Shown here one piece after another: positions 919 to 27,697 of a DNA stretch of 35,294 nucleotides (positions are counted from its first letter, which is position 1; each line of letters starts with the position of its first letter). Below the pieces are notes generated by a model. It did not search any database. It was given only the letters and a program-made list of their open reading frames with translations, and was not told the origin of the DNA. The DNA comes from Oscillospiraceae bacterium (GTDB taxonomy: Bacteria; Bacillota; Clostridia; Oscillospirales; Acutalibacteraceae), in assembly GCA_015065505.1 (NCBI GenBank), contig SVQE01000027.1:1-35294 (forward strand), read 5' to 3'. Position numbers and translations under genes: made by a program.

Positions 919-3900
919 TTAGTCAAAATATGTGTTTGCGGCTGCACCGTAAAGATACATTGCCTTTGCAAGCGTTACAAGCTTTGCGTCGTTGCTATTC
1001 AGCATCATCTTAATGATAGCATTAGCTGTCATAACAATATCGCCCTCTGACGTGTTTACCGTAATGGTGTTGTCCATATTTGCCGGCTCAATGCCCGCAA
1101 TGTGTACAACATAGTAATCACCGCTCTGATAGCTTGTTGCTGCAAATCTGTCTTTGCCCTTTGTTGCATCCATGCTTGCGCTTGTTACTTCAATAGGTGT
1201 AAGCGAGAAAAGATTAATTTCAAGGTCTGACTTAACTACAACAGATGCTTTTGTAATGCAGCTCGGTGCTGCGCTTACGCCCGCAACAGTTGAAAGGTCT
1301 GCCCCTGCAACATTATTGTAGAAACCGCCTGTTGCATCTTTGGTTGCCATATTCTCGGTATTGTAATCAAAGTAATCCTGAGCAGATGCTGCGTAGTCAA
1401 GAGTTGCTCTTGCAAGGTCTTTGAGGTTTTCAGCATAATCGCCTGTGATAATCTGACGGCAGTAGCTGTATACGCTGTAATCAATTGTATCAATTGCGTT
1501 TTCGCCTGCCTGTGCGTCATCAGCATTTGCATAAACCTTGATTTCGATAGGCTCTGTTGCCTGTGCGGGTGCCTGAGTGATTGAAATCTTTCTTGCGCCG
1601 TTATATTCGCTTGTGCTGTCATCAAGCTCGGGAAGTGAATTCATTGCAACAACATCAGTACGGAAATCATCTGACTCGCTCACATTACTGTTGTGGTTAT
1701 AGTTTACGGTTATAAATGAATCCTCACCGTAAAACTCATCATCAAGATAGAAATTCTCGCTGATGGTTTCTGCAACAGTTATGCTTGCGCCGTTGTTCGG
1801 CTCAGTCGGTGCGGGAGCTGCCGCTGTGCAGAGGTAAACAGTGTCACCATACGTCACAAACCAGTCTTTTAAGTCATCGGCTGACATATCCTCATAAATA
1901 AAGTTTTCATAATTATCCTCAAAACTTTTTTTATCAGTATCGGAGCTAATAACAAAAACAATAAGACTGCCGGTGCTACTATTGTAGTATGCGACATCTA
2001 TAAAATCCTCGCCTTTGAATATATCATCCCAATTTGCCACTATCCATGCCGCCGCTTCATCAACTGTGCATGTGCTGATATTTTCAGCGGCGATTTCGTC
2101 AGCACTTGAAACCTTTGTGAAAGAAACAGTGCTTGTCGGAGCAGGAGTGGGCAGAGCAAAGGTTTTCGATGATGAATCAAATTCAACCTTGCTCAAATCG
2201 AGCTTTAATGCAGGGCGAACGCCAAACGACTGATTCACGTTGGCGCCGGTACCGCCGTTGGCAACATAACCGTTACTGCCCACCACGAACTCTGCAATAG
2301 TTCCATCACTATCGGCCGAGCGCAACCACCATGCGTTAGCAATTGCTTCACTTGCCTGAGAACACATCCTGACATTTACCGGTATATTATTTGCTTCTCC
2401 TGAACTCAACAGCCAGAGCTTTGCACCTGTAACATTTACATCAGTTAAATCGGTTGCAACAATTGCATCTGCCACCTTTGCAAAGCTACCGTCCTCGGCA
2501 GTCATTGCGTCAAGAGTCGCCTTAATTGTTGAGGTGCTGTATTCGTTGCTTGTTTTGGTTGAATCAAAAGCACAAGCGCCAAAGCTTGTATCCGCTGCAA
2601 GCAGGGTTACGGTACCCTCGGTTTCGCTCGTTGAGTTATCCTCGATGAGGTACCAGTCGTAGCCGTTAAACTTTACTACCTTTGCTGCTAAAGCATCCGC
2701 ATCGTCAGCCTCAGCAGGTACATAGCCAGCATAAGCACTGGGAGCATCAATGTAATAGGTTGTGTTGATTGACGGCGATCCTGTGAAGGTTCCGCCGGTG
2801 CCGGTGAACATATCAGTCAACACATTATAGGTATTGGTTCCCATACTTCCCGTTCCCTCTTTAGGAATACTGTACGGGGAACTGTATTCAGCAGTTTGTT
2901 CTGTTGATAATTTGATACCGGTGCAGCCTTTAAACATACTATTATAGCAATTGCTTTCCAGGTCTATTGCCGGTAACTCCGATGGCGTTGTCAGACTTGT
3001 GCAGTCCTGGAACATACTTTGATAGCAACCATTTGTCAGGGTTGTTGCCGGTAACGCCGGCGCCGTTGTCAGACTTCTGCAGCCATTAAACATATTGTAA
3101 TAGCAATAAAACGCCAGGGTTGTTGCCGGTAACGCCGGTGCTGTTGTCAGACTTGTGCAGCCCTCAAACATATAAGAATAGCATTGTGCTGTCAGCATAG
3201 TTGCCGGTAACGCCGGCGCCGTTGTCAGATTTGCGCAGCCATTAAACATACTGTAATAGCAATAATCCGCCATGGTTGTTGCCGGTAACACCGGTGCTGT
3301 GGTAAGACTTTCGCAACCATTAAACATATTTTGATAGCAATACACCTCCAGGGCTGTTGCCGGTAACTGCGGTGCCGTTGTCAGATTTGTGCAGTTCTGG
3401 AACATACCGCCATAGCAACAAAGTGCTAGGGTTGTTGCCGGTAACTCCGGTGCCGTTGTCAGACTTGTGCAGCCACTAAACATATTTCGATAGCAATATG
3501 TTCTCAGGGTTGTTGCCGGTAACTCCGGTGCCGTTGTCAGACTTGTGCAGCCATTAAACATATAGGAATAGCAAGATTCCGTCAGGCGAGTTGCCGGTAA
3601 ATCCGGTGCTTCGGTAAGACTTGTACAATTGTTGAACAAATAAGCAAAACAATAAGTACCCATATTGGAATCCTCAGGATTATTATAATCCACAAGCGTT
3701 CTGATATCACCGCTGCAGGCAACCTTACCCTGGGTGGTAATCACCCAATATTTGGAACTATTATTATTATTACCGGTTATTTTCGTATTCCCTGTTCCAC
3801 GCAAATACAGTTTATTATTAACCGAACTAATTTGCGAAGTACCATCCCATGTTGTCCATGTGTTGGTATCCGTAGAATACTCCAGCGTTCCGTTCCAGTT

Positions 3901-4050
3901 CTTCGCGCTATTATAGGTTTGGATGCTGAAGGAGTCCGTGCCGGTAAAGGTCAGGTAAGGATTGCTTGCCGCACTCGCCGTAAACGGAATAGCCGAAACA
4001 ACCATCATCACTGCGATGAAAATGGCTGTGATTTTCTTTGAAAATTTCAT
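919..4050 (-). CDS. Secreted protein A: BspA-type repeats, DUF6273-like domain, shared C-terminal domain
   Basis: About 1043 residues. The ATG at 4050 is preferred because AAAGGA lies 10 nt upstream; an in-frame TTG nine bases earlier sits too close to it. The Sec signal peptide is residues 1 to about 28 (KFSKKITAIF..IPFTASA). Nine 26-residue repeats of the form CTSLTTAPELPATTLxxxCYxxMFxG span roughly 137-375 and belong to the BspA/DUF285-like leucine-rich class. Residues about 450-635 resemble the DUF6273 fold (KLWLLSS, WWLRSADSDG, FGVRPALKLDLS). A short unassigned region follows. Residues about 753-1043 form the C-terminal domain shared with B, D and H ([35 protein letters not shown]). There is no LPXTG motif or C-terminal membrane anchor. 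Probable role: secreted or surface adhesion/binding protein (inference). Co-transcribed with the small gene at 770-904. Confidence 0.9.
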   Translation of the reverse strand: MKFSKKITAIFIAVMMVVSAIPFTASAASNPYLTFTGTDSFSIQTYNSAKNWNGTLEYSTDTNTWTTWDGTSQISSVNNKLYLRGTGNTKITGNNNNSSKYWVITTQGKVACSGDIRTLVDYNNPEDSNMGTYCFAYLFNNCTSLTEAPDLPATRLTESCYSYMFNGCTSLTTAPELPATTLRTYCYRNMFSGCTSLTTAPELPATTLALCCYGGMFQNCTNLTTAPQLPATALEVYCYQNMFNGCESLTTAPVLPATTMADYCYYSMFNGCANLTTAPALPATMLTAQCYSYMFEGCTSLTTAPALPATTLAFYCYYNMFNGCRSLTTAPALPATTLTNGCYQSMFQDCTSLTTPSELPAIDLESNCYNSMFKGCTGIKLSTEQTAEYSSPYSIPKEGTGSMGTNTYNVLTDMFTGTGGTFTGSPSINTTYYIDAPSAYAGYVPAEADDADALAAKVVKFNGYDWYLIEDNSTSETEGTVTLLAADTSFGACAFDSTKTSNEYSTSTIKATLDAMTAEDGSFAKVADAIVATDLTDVNVTGAKLWLLSSGEANNIPVNVRMCSQASEAIANAWWLRSADSDGTIAEFVVGSNGYVANGGTGANVNQSFGVRPALKLDLSKVEFDSSSKTFALPTPAPTSTVSFTKVSSADEIAAENISTCTVDEAAAWIVANWDDIFKGEDFIDVAYYNSSTGSLIVFVISSDTDKKSFEDNYENFIYEDMSADDLKDWFVTYGDTVYLCTAAAPAPTEPNNGASITVAETISENFYLDDEFYGEDSFITVNYNHNSNVSESDDFRTDVVAMNSLPELDDSTSEYNGARKISITQAPAQATEPIEIKVYANADDAQAGENAIDTIDYSVYSYCRQIITGDYAENLKDLARATLDYAASAQDYFDYNTENMATKDATGGFYNNVAGADLSTVAGVSAAPSCITKASVVVKSDLEINLFSLTPIEVTSASMDATKGKDRFAATSYQSGDYYVVHIAGIEPANMDNTITVNTSEGDIVMTANAIIKMMLNSNDAKLVTLAKAMYLYGAAANTYFD
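2926..3643 (-). repeat. 78-bp tandem repeats encoding the BspA-type array
   Basis: Nine in-frame 78-bp units encode the repeats of protein A. On the plus strand the recurring core is GTTGTTGCCGGTAACnCCGG followed by GTTGTCAGA and a TAGCAATA block. The last unit degenerates (CTGIKLSTEQ). Very similar adjacent units make copy-number change by slippage or recombination likely. Confidence 0.85.
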
Positions 4051-4092
4051 TTTTATCAAATCCTTTCATTAATTTATTTTAGTTTTTTTCGG

Positions 4093-5035: not shown

Positions 5036-8000
5036 TTAGTCAAAATATGCGTTTGCGGCTGCACCGTAAAGATACATTGCCTTTGCAAGCGTTACAAGCT
5101 TTGCGTCGTTGCTACTGAGCATCATCTTAATGATAGCATTAGCTGTCATAACAATATCGCCCTTTGTCGTGTTTACCGTAATGGTGTTGTCCATATTTGC
5201 CGGCTCAATGCCCGCAATGTGTACAACATAGTAATCGCCGCTCTGATAGCTTGTTGCTGCAAATCTGTCTTTGCCCTTTGTTGAATCCATGCTTGCGCCT
5301 GTTACTTCAATAGGTGTAAGCGAGAAAAGATTGATTTCAAGGTCTGACTTAACAACAACAGATGCTTTTGTAATGCAGCTTGGTGCTGAGGAAACGCCTG
5401 CAACATTGCTCAAATCAGCATTTGCAACCTCGTTGTAGAAGCCGCCCTGAGCGTCTTTTGTTGCCATATCATCGGTGTTGTAGCCGAAATATGTCTGAGC
5501 GGCTGCTGCATAGTCAAGAGTTGACTTTGCAAGGGCTTTCATTTCGTCTGCCTTTTCGCCGTCGTAGTTTTCGATAATATCGCGGCAATAGGTATAAACG
5601 CTGTAATCAATTGTATCAATTGCGTTTTCGCCTGCCTGTGCGTCTTCAGCATTTGCGTAAACATTAATTGTGATAGGCTCTGTTGCCTGTGCGGGAGCCT
5701 GAACTACTGAAAACTTCTTTCTTCCGTCTGTTGCATCATCAAGAGATGACATAGCCTTAACATCCGTTGAAATATCAGCAGTTTCGCTTATATCACTGTT
5801 ATGGTTATATGTGAATGAAACATATGCTGTTTCACCGTAGAACTCATCATCAAGATAGAAATTCTCGCTGATGGTTTCCGCAACAGTTATGCTTGCGCCG
5901 TTGTTCGGCTCTGTCGGCTTCGGTGTTGCTGTGTAGGTTGCTGTGTAGGTGGCTTCGCCTGTTACGGCAACAATTTCGGGTGTCCAACCTGCAAACTCGT
6001 AGGTGTAATCCTCGTCCTCATAATCAGCCGGAGCTGCATGTGCGGGTGTTTCGCCGTAAGCGACATTGGTGGTATCAATGATCGTTGCTTCGTCGCTCTT
6101 CCAAGTGATGGTGTATGTCATAATAACCAGATGGAGCGTAGATTCTTTTTGGATATTGTACTCGCCCAAGGTTTTGTCATCCTCAAGCTGCTTGCCTGCA
6201 AAAATAAGCCTCATTGCACTTGCCGGAACGCCTGTTTCGGTGACGAGCAAATCCTTTAACTGTGCAACGGTGGTTAACCCTGTTACATTAGAAACGGTAA
6301 TCGTTCCACCTGTGAGCTTCTTTGCAAAAATTGTAAAGGTTTTTGCTTGTGCAGTATACTGAGCAGTATAGGTTGCATCACCTGTTACAGCAGAAACCTC
6401 GGGAGTCCAGCCTGCAAAGGTGTAGTTGTAATATGTATCGGAATAATCCGCCGGAGCCGTGCCGGTATAGGTCGGCACCGTGCCTTCCATCACCTTATCG
6501 GTATCAATAACGGTGGTTTCATCGAGTTTCCAGGTGACCGTGTACTTACGCACAACCTGTGCCTCGCCGGAAGCGTCGAGTCCGATTCCATAGTCATCGC
6601 CGTTACCGTTTGCGAAGTTGGCGATACCGCCATTTCCCTGAAGACCGGATGTAAACACGCCGGGGGTCTGCATAACCACACCGATGGGTACATCATTCGT
6701 CAGTTCGCCGGTTACATTGATGACTTTGCCGGTGCTAAGATAGATACCCTTTCCGTTCAGGACAGGAGCACCCTGAATTTCAACATTGCATTTGCTAAGC
6801 ACATATCCTGCGTTGTCCGGCAGAGTATCCGCTGTTGCAGCAAATGAACCGCCGCCGATTTTTACAGTATCCGTTGAATTTTTGCTGTAGACTCCGCAAC
6901 CTGTATTGGTCGTTATGGAGGTTCCATTCCAATTTACAGTACAATTGCCCTTGCAATAAACGGCTGACGAAACCGTCATATCACTGCTATTACTGGTACA
7001 TTCAATTGCACCGCCGTTGAGGTTAAAAACAGCGTCTGTGCCTGAAATACAATTACTTGCAGCTGTTCTAATCGTGCCGCTTTCAAGTGTAAGCGTTTGG
7101 CCTTTGCCTCCAACAACCGCTCTGTCAGCATTGCAGCCAATCACCTCGCCGCCTTGCGCAGAGGATTTGATTGTTAAGTCGCCGCCTTCCTGCACACTGA
7201 TTACTTGGTCATTACGGCTGATTCTCAGCTTGTACCCATTCAGGTCGAGGGTTTTGGTACCGCCGACGCTGATAGTGTTCGCTGTCGTCACATCCGACAT
7301 CAGCATCAGAGTGCTGCCATCCACCCACGCATTTAAAGCGTCACTGAGCTGATGGAAGAAGGTTTTTTCACCGCCGTGATTGACAAGCGCAGCCGCAGTC
7401 GTATAACCGCTGTCGGGAACATACAGTCTTGTACCATGATTTGCGCTTGTTCCAAATACTTCGCTTACATTTGAATAAAAATCATTGACTGTAATTTTAG
7501 TAGGAGCATTGTATGAAAAGCCGATATTATTGAATGATTGGATATTGCTGTAACTGCCTGTAAAGGCGCAGTTGTCAATCGTGGCTGTGAGTTGTTGACT
7601 CCATCCGATAAAGCCGCCGATGTAACCTCCCTGCCCGGAGCCTGTCTTATTGATACTGCCGGCGAATATGCTGTTTTCGATATTAACCGTATTTGCAGTA
7701 CCGGCGTGTCCGATAAAGCCGCCGATATAATTCTGAGCACAATTCACATCGGCATAAATATCCACATTTTTGATGGTACAGCTTGTTCCACTTCCCGGTA
7801 ATGATTTTACAAGTGCCGCCGAATGAATACCGGAGGAGGTAATACTACCTGCCAAGGTAAGGTTTTGGATGGTTGCATCCTTCACAACCTCGAATGTTGC
7901 CACAGAGGCATTCCCGCCGGAGATGTTAACCGTCAATGTGTGAGAGCCGCCATCAAACGTGCCGCTGAATGTGCCTCCAACCATCGTTGTAACAGGTCCC

Positions 8001-8740
8001 ACATCCGCAGTCATCCGTACGATTTTTCCGCTGTAAGTATTTCCACCCTTCACGCTGGCGGCAAAGCTGTTCCATTCGTCAACATTGCTGATTGACAGCA
8101 CATCGACAAAGGTCGCGGTGTAGGTTACATCGCCTGTTACGGCAGTAACCTCAGGAGACCAGCCTGCAAATTCATAGGTGTACTGTGCGTCTTCTGCCTT
8201 CGTCGGTGTTGCGCCGTCATAGGTCGGAACTGTTCCTTCTGCTACATCTGTATCGGTTTCAAGAGTTGTTCCGTCCGCATTTTCCCATGTTACGGTGTAG
8301 GTATTGACAGTAGGAGTGCTGGGGACGATACCTGACAAGGTGATGGTTTGATTATCGTGATCAACATCAACCACATACCACTGGTTTGTCATGCCGTCTG
8401 CATTATAGGGATAATACATTCCAACATTGTTATTGTCAAAAATCCTCAGAGTATTGCCGCCCCATGGAGCTTCAGTCCAATCAAACTGCCAACTTGTGGT
8501 GACCAAATCCGAATCAGCTACATCAAAATCATCGCCGTAGCCGCCTGCCGGCAAGGTCAAGGTGTATTCTTCTAATCCATGCACCTCCTCAACGTCGGAA
8601 GTCAAAATATCGCCTGTCTGAAGATCCGGTCCCCAAACATCTTGGTCTGTCCACTCGGTTGCAAATGCAGTGAACGGCATCATAGAGATTGCCATTAATG
8701 CTGCAAGAAATGCAGCAAGAATTTTCTTTGAAAATTTCAT
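5036..8740 (-). CDS. Secreted protein B: beta-helix, InlB-like repeats, embedded ubiquitin domain, shared C-terminal domain
   Basis: About 1234 residues, with its start chosen as for A. The signal peptide is about 1-28 ([17 protein letters not shown]). An unassigned N-terminal region runs to about 145. InlB-like repeat 1 (about 147-212: [21 protein letters not shown]) is followed by GLUG-like and other beta-helix stretches (about 220-735) rich in GG..L.L.GG steps. InlB-like repeat 2 is at about 736-799, a ubiquitin-fold domain at 803-873, InlB-like repeat 3 at about 876-942, and the shared C-terminal domain at about 947-1234. No LPXTG or membrane anchor is present. The leader, signal peptide and C-terminal domain are near copies of those of A, while the centre is unrelated. 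Likely role: a secreted or surface protein that may meet host cells (inference). It is divergent from a two-component pair, which may control it. Confidence 0.9.
6122..6334 (-). other. Ubiquitin-fold domain inside protein B
   Basis: Residues 803-873 of B align with residues 2-71 of eukaryotic ubiquitin with one inserted residue and, by my hand count, 39 identities in 70 positions; 25 of 29 match over ubiquitin 42-70. Key stretches are [23 protein letters not shown] and [12 protein letters not shown]. The Ile44 patch is intact (Leu809, Ile846, Val872, with His870). Lysines matching K6, K27, K48 and K63 are kept; K11, K29 and K33 are not. The C-terminal LRLRGG tail is absent: the chain runs on into the next repeat, so it cannot be conjugated in the usual way. 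It is flanked on both sides by InlB-like repeats. Confidence 0.93.
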
Positions 8741-8779
8741 TTTTATCAAATCCTTTCATTAATTATTTGCATTTTAAAA

Positions 8780-22326: not shown

Positions 22327-25300
22327 TTAATCCTTAAAATAATTATGTGCTGCAACGCCGTAGTTGAACATACTTCTTCCGAAGTTTCCGCCTTTAGCCT
22401 TTGCATACTGATTTGCATTTATGGTAAGCGTTGCGCCGTCATATTCAATAACATTCGTTTCGTTGAGATTCTCTGCAAGGATTCCCGTTATATCAAAGCA
22501 AACCTTATCAGTGCCCTCAACAACCGTTGGTGCAATTTCTCTGACATTGCCGTTTGCATCCGTTACGGTTGCAACAAGACCGTCCTGAACGCACTGTGCC
22601 TCAGTTTTGTTAATATAAACACGAAATACGGGAATTGATTTTGCAACATAGGAATAGCTCTTGAAAATTCCGCTTTTTCCTTCAAGCTGAATAACTCCGG
22701 GAATTGTTACGGAAGCCGAGTTGATATAATCCTGCGATGAAAAAGCGCCTTCGTTATAACTGAATTCTTCACTGCACGCCTTGCCGTAATCAAGCATTGA
22801 TTTTGCAAGCTCAACAAGCTGTTCTTCCTTGGTATCCGAGGAATCCTCATATCTTTCAATAACAGCCTCGCAATAATCCTTTATCGAGGTTTTGAAGGTT
22901 CGGCTGTCTTCGCCGTCATTAACCTCAACTGTTATCTCATCCCTCATCTGAGCAGGTGCAGCAAGAATCTTGAAAACATATCTTCCGTCTTCATCATCCT
23001 TGAGCGCTTTGAGCTCGCTGCCCGAATAAGTTTCCGTTACAGTGGTCGGAGCCTGCTTATCGGGGTCGTTATGGGTTATTGTAACGCTTGCACTGTCTGC
23101 ATCGCTGATATGCAGATATAAATTCATATGAATGCAGTCATCAAGAGTTAAGTTATAAGCATCCTCCGTGCCGTGACCGTCAATGGTATAACAGGTTACG
23201 GTTTCGCCCTCTTCATCCTCATAGGTCCAGCTTCGCATTGCATAGCCCTCGGGAAGATTTGACGGTGCTTCAACGCAGGTTCCCATATAGAAGCCTCGTT
23301 TAACCTTTAAAACTTCATAAACTGCAGGGTCATCCTCAATTTTCTTAAGTGTGTAGTTAAACAGCGGAGCACTGAGAATTCTGACTATATTATCATTTCC
23401 GCCGCGTTCGTCCGCCGCATCTGCAAAGCTCAGATAGTAATCAATATGGTCTCCGTTTGGCTTTTCAACAGCCGCCTCATACGGAACCCATACTCCCGTG
23501 ATTTCCAGATCCTCGGTTATGTTTTTTCCGAGGAACGGAGTTCCGTAGGTATCGTAGCCCGCTCCCTCAAAGAAAGCAACGAAATGCGCTCCCGGGTTCA
23601 TAGATTCGGGAAGATACGGAATCGGCGGGAAATACCATCCCTCGGGATACGGAAATTTAAGAATTATATCCGTATATCCGATTATTGTGAGAACAGGGGG
23701 AAGTATTTTAACAATTGTTGCAACGTTCTGATTATAGGTTGCCCAGATATCATTAACACAATCGGGCAGAACCTCTGCGCCCGCGTCAAGAATTGAAATA
23801 CCCGTGTCGATAGTTACCCAGTGGAACTTATGGTTCTTATATTCCTTGCTTCCGTCCTCGTTTTCCTGCTCTTCAAGGCATTCTGAATCGGAATCCGAAA
23901 CATCAACGCTTACGCTTCCGCCGCCGCTGACAGAAACCGATGCGCCTGCTCCGAGAACAATGGAAACCGATGCGCCGCCTGCAACAACAACCGACGCCGC
24001 TGCGCCTGCTGCTATATTAAATGAGTCGTCATCGCTTCCTTCACCGTCAATATAAACATTTGAATCATCTCTGTAGTAGAAGCTTATATTGTTTACGCTT
24101 TCGCTTCTCTGATAATCAACAACATTTTCATCGTTGCCGTTTGCCTTAACACGAAGAAGGCCGATATTTGAAGTAAGGTCGTTCATACTGTATTCAGACA
24201 TATCCCTGAGCAGAATGATATTCTTTGTTCCGCCTGAAGCTTCGGCAGCGTCATCAAAAGAGGTATACTGAACGCCGTCAACCTCAGCAACGGGGCGAGG
24301 TATTGCGGTAAATGCTGCGGTGTAGGCTGTATCGCCCGTTGCCGCCGTTACAGCAGGAGTCCAGCCTTCAAACTCATAGGAATATTCAGAGTCATCGGGT
24401 CTTACGGGTGTTGCGCCGTCATAAGTCGGAACATCTCCCTCTGTAAGATTTGAATCAGTTTCAAGAACTGTTCCGTCGTAGTTCTGCCATGTAACAGTGT
24501 ACGGAGCGTGGAGCTTGAGCTGATTGGTTGAAACATCCTTTGCAACAACATAGCTGCTGTTATCGCTGACAAAATTAGATGCGTTATTATATGCAGTGTT
24601 CACGCTGTTAGTAAACACGCCCGTGTTGCTCGATTTTCTGATTCCGATTGAAGCGCTGTTGTCGAGAGCCTCTTCAACGAAAACTAAGCCGTCGTTAGCA
24701 AGATTAACATTATTCAGCGCATCATTCTTATAGTTATCGCGAACAACGGGGTTACCCCAGAGGTGCAGCTGCGAGCCTGCGGAAATATGTATTCCGCCGC
24801 CGTTATTGCCGCATTTATTATGAGCGATAAGTCCGCCTGTCAAGTTCACTTCAACATAGTTTGTTGAAGCATAAACGCCGCCGCCCCAGTTGTTTGCAAC
24901 ATTATAAATAATCTGTCCGCCGTTGATTCTTGTTGAGGAGGAACAGCCGATACCTGCACCGCTTCTTTCGGTGTAGTTACCGATAATTGTTCCACCGTTC
25001 ATTGTGAATATTCCCGAGTTGCTGATTGTGCTCGGTGCGTGTGAAACGCCGTACACTCCTGTTAAATATCCGCCGGTGAAGGTCTGGTAATCCTCGCCCT
25101 CAATACCGCCGATACTGTCATCAACAATGGCAAGACCGTTTTCATCAACCGTGTATCTGTGAACGGTGCTGCCCGAATCGTTCATTATGAATTTTGCATT
25201 TGAAGAAACAGTGAAAATGTTATAATCCCTGCTGCCTGCTGCACGAATTCCGAAGCCGTTTAAATCAATGGTGCGCGGGTCTGCAAGAGCACCCTCGGGA

Positions 25301-27654
25301 ATATTAACGGTTCCTGTTACTTCAATATCTGCAAGAAGTGTAAGCGTGCTGCCTGCAACCCAGTTTTCAGCTTTAACAGCCTCTTCAAATGAGCCGTAGA
25401 GCGTATCGCCAATCCTTGCAACGGGTGTCATTTGTGTATAAGTTGCCGTGTAGGTTGCATCGCCCGTTGCGGCAGTTACCTCGGGGGACCAACTTTCAAA
25501 AGCATAAAGCTTTTGTGAATCGCCCGACTTTGAAGGAAGCTCACCGTCATAAGTCGGAACTGTTCCCTCTGCAACATTTGTATCCGTTTCAAGAACCTCA
25601 TCGTTATCGTTAAGCCATGTTACAGTATAAGGCGTGTGGAGCTTGAGCTGATTGCTTGAAGCATCCTTGCCGACAACATAGGTTGCATTGTCGCTTGTGA
25701 ATTTATCTATGTCGTTGTATTCTGTGTTTTCGCTGTCCGTAATAACGCCGTAGCCGCTCGACCTTCTTAAGCCGATTAATGCGTCTTCCCCGAGAGGACC
25801 TGTTATGGCAACATTTGCGTAAAGCGCAAGGTTTAAGTTATTTGCAGTCACTTCGGGGTTATCGTTAATTGAAATATTATCGGTAATAATCGGTGAGCCC
25901 GAAATATTAACTCTGTCGTAATCGGATATATGAACACCGCCGCCGTTTCCTGCGCCGTTATTTCTGATAACACCGCCCAAAATATTAACAGTGTTTGCGC
26001 CTGTGTCGGAAAGGTATATTCCGCCGCCCCAGCCGACTGCGCAGTTACCTGTTATAAGACCGCCGTTAAAGTTCGTTGTTCCATAGTTACATATACCGGC
26101 GCCCTTATTAACATTGTTTCCTATTAATGTTCCGCCGTTCATTGTGAAGGTTCCGAGGTTTGAAACTGCACCGCCCGAAATCGAGGTGTTGTTAACGCCG
26201 GTGATATAACCGCCCGTGAAGGTGAAATAGTCAACGCCTTCAGTTCCCTCAAGGCTGTCGTCAACAGATGCAACACAGTTTGCGCCAACTGTGTATTTAT
26301 GTACGGTGCTGCCCGAATCGTTCATAGTGAGCGAGGCATCCGAGGGAATGGACAATATGCTGAAATTTCTGCTGCCTGCTGCACGAATACCGAAGCCGTT
26401 TAAATCAATCGTGTGTGCACCCGAAGGAACATTGATTGCCTGAGTTACATCAATATCCTTGAGAAGGGTTAATGTGCTGCCCGCAGTCCATGAATTAACT
26501 GCATCGTCAAGCGATTCATAATATGTTTCGCCAACCCTTGCAACGGGGTCAAGCCCTGTGAAGGTTGCTGTGTATGTTGCATTGCCCGTTGCGGCAGTAA
26601 CATCGGGAGACCAGCCTTCAAAGCTGAATGCGCCCTGCTTTGTTGGCGCTTCGCCGTTATATGTCGGAACTGTTCCCTCGGCAACATCCGAATCCGTTTC
26701 AAGAACTGTGCCGTCGTAGTTCTGCCATGTAATAGTGTATGGTGCGTGTATTTTCAGCTGATTGCTTAATGCGTCCTTACCAACAACATAGAGGCTGCTA
26801 TCGCTGAAAAATTTAGACGCGTCATTGTAGGAGGTGTTATCGCTGCTTGTGAGCACACCCGTATTGCCCTGCATTTTAACGCCGATAGAAGCACTGTTTC
26901 CAAGCTCGCCTGCAATCTTTATTTCAGCATCGTTTGAAACAAATAAGTTGTTGGGCTTATTATCGCTGATAACAGGATTTCCCGAAACTCTTGCAGTATT
27001 TCCGTTATTGAGATAAACTCCGCCGCCGTTTGAATTTGCAGTGTTATAAATAATCTTACCGCCGTTTAAGTTCAGGTTTCCTTCGCTATAAACAGCTGCA
27101 CCGTTTGAGTCGGTATAGTTGCCTATAATAGTTCCTGCGTTAATTGTCAGATTTCCTGTATTATAAAATACGCTATCCGGTGAATTTGTTATGTAACCGC
27201 CGTTAAAGGTGAAATAATCTACACCCTTTGTGCCTTCCAGACCATCGTTAACAGCTGCAAGACCGTTTGCATTAACGGTGTATTTATGCTCCCTGCTTCC
27301 CGAATCGGTAACTGTAAGAGAACAGGTTTCGCCGTTAATATAAAACAGTTTCTTATAATATTCGCCTGCAGAGATTGTTGAACGGATTCCGTAACCGTTC
27401 AAATCAAGCGTATGCTCACCGTCGCCCATAACAACCATAAACGACACTTCAACATCTGAGAGCAGAGTCAGCGTACTGCCTGCAGACCAATTATTCTTAT
27501 TCAATGCCGAGTCTATGCTTTCATAATACTCGGTTGTTTCACCGTCTGTTATACTTGCAACATATGAATCAGCCATAGCCGTTAAAGTGTTTAACGGACT
27601 TATAAGCAGTATAAGCGATAACAGAATGCTTAAATATTTTTTCATTTTTCGCAT
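22327..27654 (-). CDS. Secreted protein H: three beta-helix/InlB-like modules, low-complexity strand, shared C-terminal domain
   Basis: About 1775 residues from the ATG at 27654 (GGAGG 7 nt upstream; an in-frame TTG lies 6 bases earlier). The signal peptide is about 1-30 (KKYLSILLSLILLISPLNTL). Three similar modules each open with a line such as YYESLDDAVNSWTAGSTLTL, run through GG-rich beta-helix turns (FTMNGGTLIGN) and close with an InlB-like repeat (about 305-370, 672-738, 1048-1115; TVTWQNYDGTVLETDS). Residues about 1208-1255 are low-complexity Ala/Gly/Ser/Val (ASVVVAGGASVSIVLGAGAS) and then acidic. An unassigned region follows, and the shared C-terminal domain occupies about 1500-1775 (YNLTLDDCIHMNLYLH; MLDYGKACSEEFSYN). 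No LPXTG. Likely secreted or surface-exposed. Co-transcribed with the 49-codon gene. Confidence 0.9.
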   Translation of the reverse strand: MRKMKKYLSILLSLILLISPLNTLTAMADSYVASITDGETTEYYESIDSALNKNNWSAGSTLTLLSDVEVSFMVVMGDGEHTLDLNGYGIRSTISAGEYYKKLFYINGETCSLTVTDSGSREHKYTVNANGLAAVNDGLEGTKGVDYFTFNGGYITNSPDSVFYNTGNLTINAGTIIGNYTDSNGAAVYSEGNLNLNGGKIIYNTANSNGGGVYLNNGNTARVSGNPVISDNKPNNLFVSNDAEIKIAGELGNSASIGVKMQGNTGVLTSSDNTSYNDASKFFSDSSLYVVGKDALSNQLKIHAPYTITWQNYDGTVLETDSDVAEGTVPTYNGEAPTKQGAFSFEGWSPDVTAATGNATYTATFTGLDPVARVGETYYESLDDAVNSWTAGSTLTLLKDIDVTQAINVPSGAHTIDLNGFGIRAAGSRNFSILSIPSDASLTMNDSGSTVHKYTVGANCVASVDDSLEGTEGVDYFTFTGGYITGVNNTSISGGAVSNLGTFTMNGGTLIGNNVNKGAGICNYGTTNFNGGLITGNCAVGWGGGIYLSDTGANTVNILGGVIRNNGAGNGGGVHISDYDRVNISGSPIITDNISINDNPEVTANNLNLALYANVAITGPLGEDALIGLRRSSGYGVITDSENTEYNDIDKFTSDNATYVVGKDASSNQLKLHTPYTVTWLNDNDEVLETDTNVAEGTVPTYDGELPSKSGDSQKLYAFESWSPEVTAATGDATYTATYTQMTPVARIGDTLYGSFEEAVKAENWVAGSTLTLLADIEVTGTVNIPEGALADPRTIDLNGFGIRAAGSRDYNIFTVSSNAKFIMNDSGSTVHRYTVDENGLAIVDDSIGGIEGEDYQTFTGGYLTGVYGVSHAPSTISNSGIFTMNGGTIIGNYTERSGAGIGCSSSTRINGGQIIYNVANNWGGGVYASTNYVEVNLTGGLIAHNKCGNNGGGIHISAGSQLHLWGNPVVRDNYKNDALNNVNLANDGLVFVEEALDNSASIGIRKSSNTGVFTNSVNTAYNNASNFVSDNSSYVVAKDVSTNQLKLHAPYTVTWQNYDGTVLETDSNLTEGDVPTYDGATPVRPDDSEYSYEFEGWTPAVTAATGDTAYTAAFTAIPRPVAEVDGVQYTSFDDAAEASGGTKNIILLRDMSEYSMNDLTSNIGLLRVKANGNDENVVDYQRSESVNNISFYYRDDSNVYIDGEGSDDDSFNIAAGAAASVVVAGGASVSIVLGAGASVSVSGGGSVSVDVSDSDSECLEEQENEDGSKEYKNHKFHWVTIDTGISILDAGAEVLPDCVNDIWATYNQNVATIVKILPPVLTIIGYTDIILKFPYPEGWYFPPIPYLPESMNPGAHFVAFFEGAGYDTYGTPFLGKNITEDLEITGVWVPYEAAVEKPNGDHIDYYLSFADAADERGGNDNIVRILSAPLFNYTLKKIEDDPAVYEVLKVKRGFYMGTCVEAPSNLPEGYAMRSWTYEDEEGETVTCYTIDGHGTEDAYNLTLDDCIHMNLYLHISDADSASVTITHNDPDKQAPTTVTETYSGSELKALKDDEDGRYVFKILAAPAQMRDEITVEVNDGEDSRTFKTSIKDYCEAVIERYEDSSDTKEEQLVELAKSMLDYGKACSEEFSYNEGAFSSQDYINSASVTIPGVIQLEGKSGIFKSYSYVAKSIPVFRVYINKTEAQCVQDGLVATVTDANGNVREIAPTVVEGTDKVCFDITGILAENLNETNVIEYDGATLTINANQYAKAKGGNFGRSMFNYGVAAHNYFKD

Positions 27655-27697
27655 AAACAAACCTCCGGAATTTGCAAAAATACTTGTCTAAAATAAG

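Follow-up and report, generated by a model that had tools for sequence, protein, structure and literature searches.

Organization of the locus

The analyzed DNA, hereafter the window, comprises positions 1-35,294 of contig SVQE01000027.1 from Oscillospiraceae bacterium GCA_015065505.1. One gene on its minus strand encodes a large exported-type protein that carries a ubiquitin domain in its interior. Residues are numbered here from the TTG start codon, so that the domain lies three residues further on than in the original prediction (803-873), which counted from the ATG at codon 4. The features of the gene are as follows.

5036-8749, minus strand: gene of the exported protein (ORF), 1237 amino acids from TTG; an alternative ATG at 8740 is codon 4 and gives 1234 amino acids
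8660-8740, minus strand: putative signal peptide, residues 4-30 (27 residues), judged by eye
8075-8299, minus strand: N-terminal repeat copy, residues 151-225, matching the repeats of the window protein 22327-27660
6353-6547, minus strand: repeat immediately ahead of ubiquitin, residues 735-799 (repeat comparison)
6122-6334, minus strand: ubiquitin domain, residues 806-876, corresponding to ubiquitin 2-71 plus one inserted residue (Pfam, tblastn, predicted fold)
5930-6118, minus strand: repeat immediately behind ubiquitin, residues 878-940, occupying the place of the RLRGG tail (repeat comparison)
5039-5923, minus strand: C-terminal module of 295 amino acids, possibly a surface anchor, with 13 occurrences in the genome
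922-1815, 5039-5923, 11288-12187, and 22336-23154, all minus strand: copies of the shared C-terminal module (sequence comparison)

The N-terminus is leader-like when read by eye, which agrees with the earlier proposal of a Sec signal peptide and an exported protein; we treat the signal peptide as putative. Over its first 30 residues, the protein shares 66.7% identity with the start of the neighboring exported protein 919-4059, which adjoins the ubiquitin gene and contains DUF6273 (Pfam). The two repeats that flank ubiquitin are 63-65 residues long and beta-rich in the AlphaFold prediction, and they represent diverged versions of one repeat (dN 0.33). They had been described as InlB-like, but this label found no support in Pfam or NCBIfam at E 0.01, where neither the InlB B-repeat nor the Listeria-Bacteroides repeat was matched (PF09479, PF18998, and TIGR02543).

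The C-terminal module of approximately 295 residues recurs in four large proteins of exported type encoded in the window, with mutual identities of 24-82%. It has no Pfam name, and its model, predicted to consist of sandwich-like parts and helices, had no clear PDB relative in a structure search. This module may be a surface anchor, or an anchoring or sorting domain. The rest of the window, as scanned, is ordinary: it encodes a response regulator, a histidine kinase, an LPG synthase-type enzyme, MatE and MFS transporters, an acetyltransferase, a SpoIIE phosphatase, a sugar kinase, a GGDEF protein, and a phosphoesterase. No ubiquitin enzyme was found among the 14 window proteins scanned with Pfam. 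The E2 family (PF00179) had zero matches in this genome, yet the 14 controls were equally silent.

Identification of the internal domain as ubiquitin

The Pfam scan of the window protein gave a match to PF00240 with 73.1 bits (E 1.6e-20; curated cut-off 25.4), and the family search across the whole genome located it at 6122-6328 with 78.1 bits. When human ubiquitin was compared with the domain by tblastn, 39 of 70 columns were identical, exactly the number that had been counted by hand, and the coordinates 6122-6334 proved exact as well. Recounting the aligned columns across ubiquitin 42-70 also reproduced the reported 25 identities in 29. Relative to ubiquitin, the domain has one extra residue, which follows position 16. 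A search of PDB sequences with the domain yielded 378 distinct sequences at E <=0.001, and nearly all of those listed were ubiquitins, polyubiquitins, or engineered variants. A beta-grasp fold, on which the original prediction depended, was predicted by AlphaFold with a pLDDT of approximately 89-97, and the model lay 0.7 Å rmsd from ubiquitin 6k2u (TM 0.94, 72 columns; Foldseek). The Rad23 family TIGR00601 (NCBIfam) was matched only weakly, at 30.3 bits against a cut-off of 207.3. The Pfam score, the PDB sequence search, and the predicted fold thus identify the domain as ubiquitin and not as a further repeat.

As had been claimed, the Ile44 patch and the equivalents of K6, K27, K48, and K63 are retained, while K11, K29, and K33 are not. 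All 10 positions of the Ile44 face are identical, compared with 20 of 46 other non-core sites, with the face and the core defined by position lists that we take to be the accepted ones. The chain passes straight into the next repeat (...LHLVIM/T, the slash marking the junction), and RLRGG is absent. Because the diglycine is missing, ordinary conjugation is ruled out, in agreement with the earlier reading that the next repeat replaces the tail. Therefore, we concluded that the window protein is an exported bacterial protein containing a true eukaryotic-type ubiquitin domain that cannot be conjugated.

Related ubiquitins in the same genome, genus, order, and phylum

A second ubiquitin protein was detected in the same genome, on contig 79 (78.7 bits). 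Its ubiquitin differs strongly from that of the window (dN 0.54), while the end modules of the two proteins are nearly identical (dN 0.11). Within the genus, 4 of 80 genomes had ubiquitin matches, namely the source genome, G030, G435, and G464. In the G030 protein (L005), ubiquitin is likewise internal and flanked by repeats like those of the window protein; this domain is 66% identical to that of the window and is its supported sister (support 96) in a tree that comprises ubiquitins and NEDD8 only and has 2 of its 91 inner branches starred. L005 differs from the window protein in an N-terminal part with LRR_5, in a PF18998 match (divergent InlB B-repeat) elsewhere, at 523-590, and in an end module that is only 25% identical. 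In G435 and G464, ubiquitin immediately follows the leader (LTAYA/MDIYVKV...), and the genus therefore holds both layouts. By eye, a stretch of the G464 ubiquitin protein (L101, 717-2498) resembles DUF6273.

Five of 394 genomes of the order matched, the source genome included. At the level of the phylum, 5 of 398 genomes matched at E 0.001, four of them above the cut-off, and on inspection a clear ubiquitin was present only in the source genome and in G638, which has the N-terminal form (SA/MQVFVKTLTG...). The trait is rare and patchy.

Exported ubiquitins in other bacteria

Using an alignment of nine ubiquitins as the query, 84,980 species' genomes were scanned. This gave 399 pattern matches, of which 379 were relatives, and the best 80 loci, encoding 85 ubiquitin proteins, were analyzed; as the scan pattern lies within ubiquitin 58-66 and only the best matches were taken, high identities were selected for. 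Signal-peptidase sites were first called strictly, with A or G required at -1, one of A, V, S, and T at -3, and a hydrophobic core upstream. Such a site immediately precedes ubiquitin Met1 in 47 of the 85 proteins, and no other offset within ten residues has more than 19. A looser criterion placed the site exactly there in 54 proteins (52 of 80 loci), and in 13 more it lay 1-11 residues upstream. The strict criterion was preferred because the looser one also fires 51 times at +10, on residues of ubiquitin itself. No leader was recognizable in 18 of the 85 proteins, some of which look eukaryotic. GG at positions 75-76 was retained in only 9 of 85.

By label, the 65 leader-bearing loci belong to Bacillota (27), Pseudomonadota (16), Verrucomicrobiota (9), Bacteroidota (3), and eight other phyla with one locus each, and two are unranked; many labels come from metagenome bins, and individual ones may be wrong. 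Better-founded carriers are the cultured bacteria, namely three Dyella genomes, Rhodobacter amnigenus, Verrucomicrobia IMCC26134, and Ruminococcus albus 7, whose WP_013483628.1 is encoded on the complete plasmid pRUMAL01 and is named 'ubiquitin family protein' by NCBI. A plasmid of Pseudoalteromonas shioyasakiensis encodes a leader and a ubiquitin with 49% identity. The record titles of the loci name rumen, goat gut, feces, and pond samples. The original prediction had regarded the placement in the window as distinct; the protein is no isolated oddity and represents a diverged relative of exported bacterial ubiquitins.

Fusion partners of ubiquitin

A C-terminal part of at least 25 residues was present in 86 of 100 proteins (L004-L099, a set that includes a few duplicate loci). 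Grouping at E 1e-5 sorted these parts into 34 clusters. Thirty representatives and some further proteins were scanned with Pfam, and the following partners scored above cut-off.

Autotransporter beta-domain: L030, L033, L049, L084, L099
Dockerin_1: L025, L035
SLH: L020
IPTL-CTERM: L016, L089
PEP-CTERM: L083
List-Bact repeats and Big_2: L027
SdrD_B: L029
Ig_7: L056
CBM_X2: L050
Glug: L047, L088
MBG: L006
FGE-sulfatase domain: L058

Many of the named modules attach proteins to the cell surface or to an extracellular complex. Several representatives had no partner named by Pfam, e.g., L042, L021, L022, L068, L036, and L080. Three Dyella proteins consist of a leader and ubiquitin alone, and one of them ends in RLRGG.

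Selection on the ubiquitin domain

The dN/dS ratio was estimated for 103 pairs in 12 groups sharing a fusion partner, which were hand-picked from 11 of 18 multi-member clusters. The seven-member leaderless group, the clusters L027/L051/L079/L095, L006/L008/L091, L007/L020, L021/L039, L029/L040, and L066/L096, and the single members L015, L017, L018, and L074 were set aside, and L004 and L005 were compared separately. Fifty-five of the 103 pairs were informative (0.1 < dS < 1.5); the other 48 lay outside this range, 20 of them having no finite dS. The median dN/dS of ubiquitin over the informative pairs, which are non-independent (a single Ruminococcus group supplies 41 of the 55), was 0.07, with a range of 0 to 0.46. 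In 53 of the 54 pairs with a measurable ubiquitin dN, the dN of the fused part exceeded it, by a median factor of 5.7. The single exception, a tandem pair in IMCC26134, also has the highest ratio. These results indicated that ubiquitin is under purifying selection within bacteria, and that the attached parts drift while ubiquitin stays constant.

The lineage of the window behaves differently from these groups. Between the window and G030, ubiquitin dN was 0.264 at a dS of 1.33 (dN/dS approximately 0.20), and the dN values of the flanking repeats and the end module were 0.45 and 0.35, and 0.89, respectively. The ubiquitin of this lineage is thus loosely constrained and evolves nearly as fast as the neighboring repeats. 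The uneven constraint that had been suspected from its more diverged N-terminal half was borne out, the dN being 0.326 over the first 41 aligned codons and 0.190 over the other 30.

Per-site conservation was calculated from 73 of 96 unique ubiquitins, with L001-L003, the viral contigs L011-L014 and L019, and the leaderless or eukaryotic-looking L024, L028, L032, L041, L043, L044, L064, L072, L075, L094, and L097 left out. Among seven diverged lineages, the Ile44 face was not significantly favored (47 of 70 sites compared with 176 of 322 other non-core sites, p = 0.06), and within ubiquitin 42-70 it was no better kept than its neighbors (37 of 56 and 72 of 105, respectively). The Pseudoalteromonas copy keeps only 2 of the 10 face positions.

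Comparison with known ubiquitins

The nearest known system is BfUbb of Bacteroides fragilis, which resembles the window protein in combining a signal peptide with a eukaryotic-type ubiquitin that has no terminal glycine, which makes the usual conjugation impossible (PMC3352274, PMC5705921). BfUbb is free and small, its leader ending where ubiquitin residue 1 begins, whereas the ubiquitin of the window is internal, starting at about residue 805 of 1237. An identity of 63% is reported for BfUbb in PMC3352274, compared with 39 of 70 positions identical to human ubiquitin in the window domain. Many of the wider relatives have the leader-Met1 junction of BfUbb, and most have likewise lost the glycine. 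We therefore do not class the window protein with BfUbb, although it may act in a similar way.

R. albus 7 WP_013483628.1 is likewise an exported-type ubiquitin of a cultured Oscillospiraceae bacterium, but it has the N-terminal form (ANA/MQIFVK...), a C-terminal part without Pfam match, and no repeats around ubiquitin. Eukaryotic ubiquitin-like domains of the Rad23 type also place a non-conjugatable ubiquitin domain within a longer chain; the window protein differs from them in being exported, bacterial, and closer to ubiquitin itself. Among the listed matches from open-licence papers, no secreted bacterial ubiquitin of eukaryotic type other than BfUbb occurred, and none of the listed papers dealt with anchored or autotransporter-fused bacterial ubiquitins.

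Proposed display and function of the exported ubiquitins

Here, we propose a tentative model in which the displayed, non-conjugatable ubiquitin may well act as a ligand outside the producing cell. Eukaryotic-type ubiquitin would have been taken by bacteria into exported proteins, and would present its fold and recognition surface to a partner protein while lacking the diglycine on which E1/E2 chemistry depends. In the commonest form, cleavage of the signal peptide would make ubiquitin Met1 the new N-terminus, and a C-terminal module, be it an autotransporter barrel, a dockerin, an S-layer domain, or a sorting motif, would tether the protein to the surface or to an extracellular complex. In the window protein, ubiquitin would form an internal bead between two beta-rich repeats, followed by the end module common to other exported proteins. 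The homology, the predicted fold, the loss of the tail, the export-type sequence, the fusions, and the selection are observed; surface display, a role as a ligand, and a benefit to the producer are inferred.

A ubiquitin-recognizing protein of co-resident eukaryotes (protists or an animal host) would be a likelier partner than a protein of bacteria. Rumen, gut, fecal, and pond habitats, from which samples of the loci came, commonly harbor bacterivorous protists, and for this reason we prefer a eukaryotic reader of the signal. An action on host factors or antibodies, as put forward in the original prediction, is conjectural. Extracellular ubiquitin has been proposed to act in animals, through CXCR4 and others, and these proposals, which are disputed, are reviewed in PMC10892293. 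With more reserve, we consider it possible that several phyla display a near-perfect ubiquitin N-terminally on anchored proteins, selected as a mimic for protist or animal ubiquitin receptors, and that lineages such as that of the window shuffled ubiquitin into adhesin stalks.

A serious rival, which we nevertheless think rather unlikely, is that the ubiquitin of the window is merely a stable bead, a beta-grasp module that was captured, makes the stalk of repeats longer or stiffer, and has lost any role in recognition. It has to be taken seriously because the window copy is internal and evolves nearly as fast as the repeats on either side, the dN/dS of about 0.20 against G030 being similar to theirs. 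The second copy in the genome, with its very different ubiquitin and near-identical end module, looks like a product of module shuffling, and linear polyubiquitins, which head the Foldseek list with long alignments at 7-16 Å rmsd, indicate that ubiquitin fits a string of beads. Such a role would leave unexplained why the Ile44 face of the window domain is fully identical while fewer than half of the other non-core sites are, and it fits poorly with the relatives, which conserve ubiquitin far better than the surrounding parts. An antibacterial action, in which the exported ubiquitin would poison or block rival bacteria, is improbable for a protein of 1237 residues with an internal ubiquitin, and most relatives also carry long C-terminal parts. 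It draws on BfUbb, whose leader is cut at ubiquitin residue 1, which has no terminal glycine, and which antagonizes other strains (PMC5705921). The identical leader-Met1 junction in many relatives and the three Dyella proteins made of leader and ubiquitin alone are in line with such an action. No recurring immunity-type neighbor was found around the ubiquitin genes of the relatives, though BfUbb reportedly needs none (PMC5705921).

It is very improbable that these ubiquitins were captured too recently for selection in bacteria to have acted on them, or that they stem from eukaryotic DNA contaminating the bins. Many loci are indeed metagenome bins, eukaryotic-looking entries such as L041 (four tandem ubiquitins, leaderless) and L044 occur among them, and the tree, with its two starred inner branches, would allow several captures. 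Against both possibilities stand the bacterial-type leaders and fusion partners, the RefSeq isolates, the complete R. albus plasmid, and the position of the window domain inside a bacterial exported protein with a sister in G030. They also disagree with the high synonymous divergence among genes that have the same bacterial partner and a nearly unchanged ubiquitin. The ligand model is our preferred reading.

Ubiquitin counts as a eukaryotic hallmark. A broad array of bacterial ubiquitins that are exported, fused to anchoring modules, and under purifying selection poses the question of who reads ubiquitin outside cells. The cultured carriers R. albus 7, Dyella, Rhodobacter amnigenus, and Verrucomicrobia IMCC26134 make this question testable. 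If the displayed ubiquitin were recognized by hosts or by anti-ubiquitin antibodies, it would bear on molecular mimicry; if it acted on bacteria, BfUbb would be part of a larger group.

Gene neighborhoods of the relatives

Several further features were observed around the ubiquitin genes. Leaderless ubiquitin genes with actinobacterial labels occur in L043, L072, L075, L094, and L097, in tandem in three of the five, and share a C-terminal part (TGVVTYQ...) of no named kind. A Pfam-less gene lies beside ubiquitin in six loci (L054, 426-1433; L067, 7207-8202; L030; L053; L062; and L089), labeled as a cyanobacterium, Methylophilaceae, Bacteroidota, Burkholderiales, and Acidovorax, with some labels possibly wrong. 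In Ruminococcaceae-type loci, a small Pfam-less gene is found near ubiquitin (L096, 5119-5739; L091, 5462-5884; L066; and L125), that of L096 being directly upstream. Two Dyella loci (L038, 4758-5867; L061, 4702-5880) have, by eye, a similar-looking exported-type gene directly upstream of the leader-ubiquitin gene. On pRUMAL01 (L125, 5372-8273), the ubiquitin gene is one in a series of genes that encode small proteins of exported type; a PI-PLC domain protein is encoded just upstream and a dockerin protein downstream.
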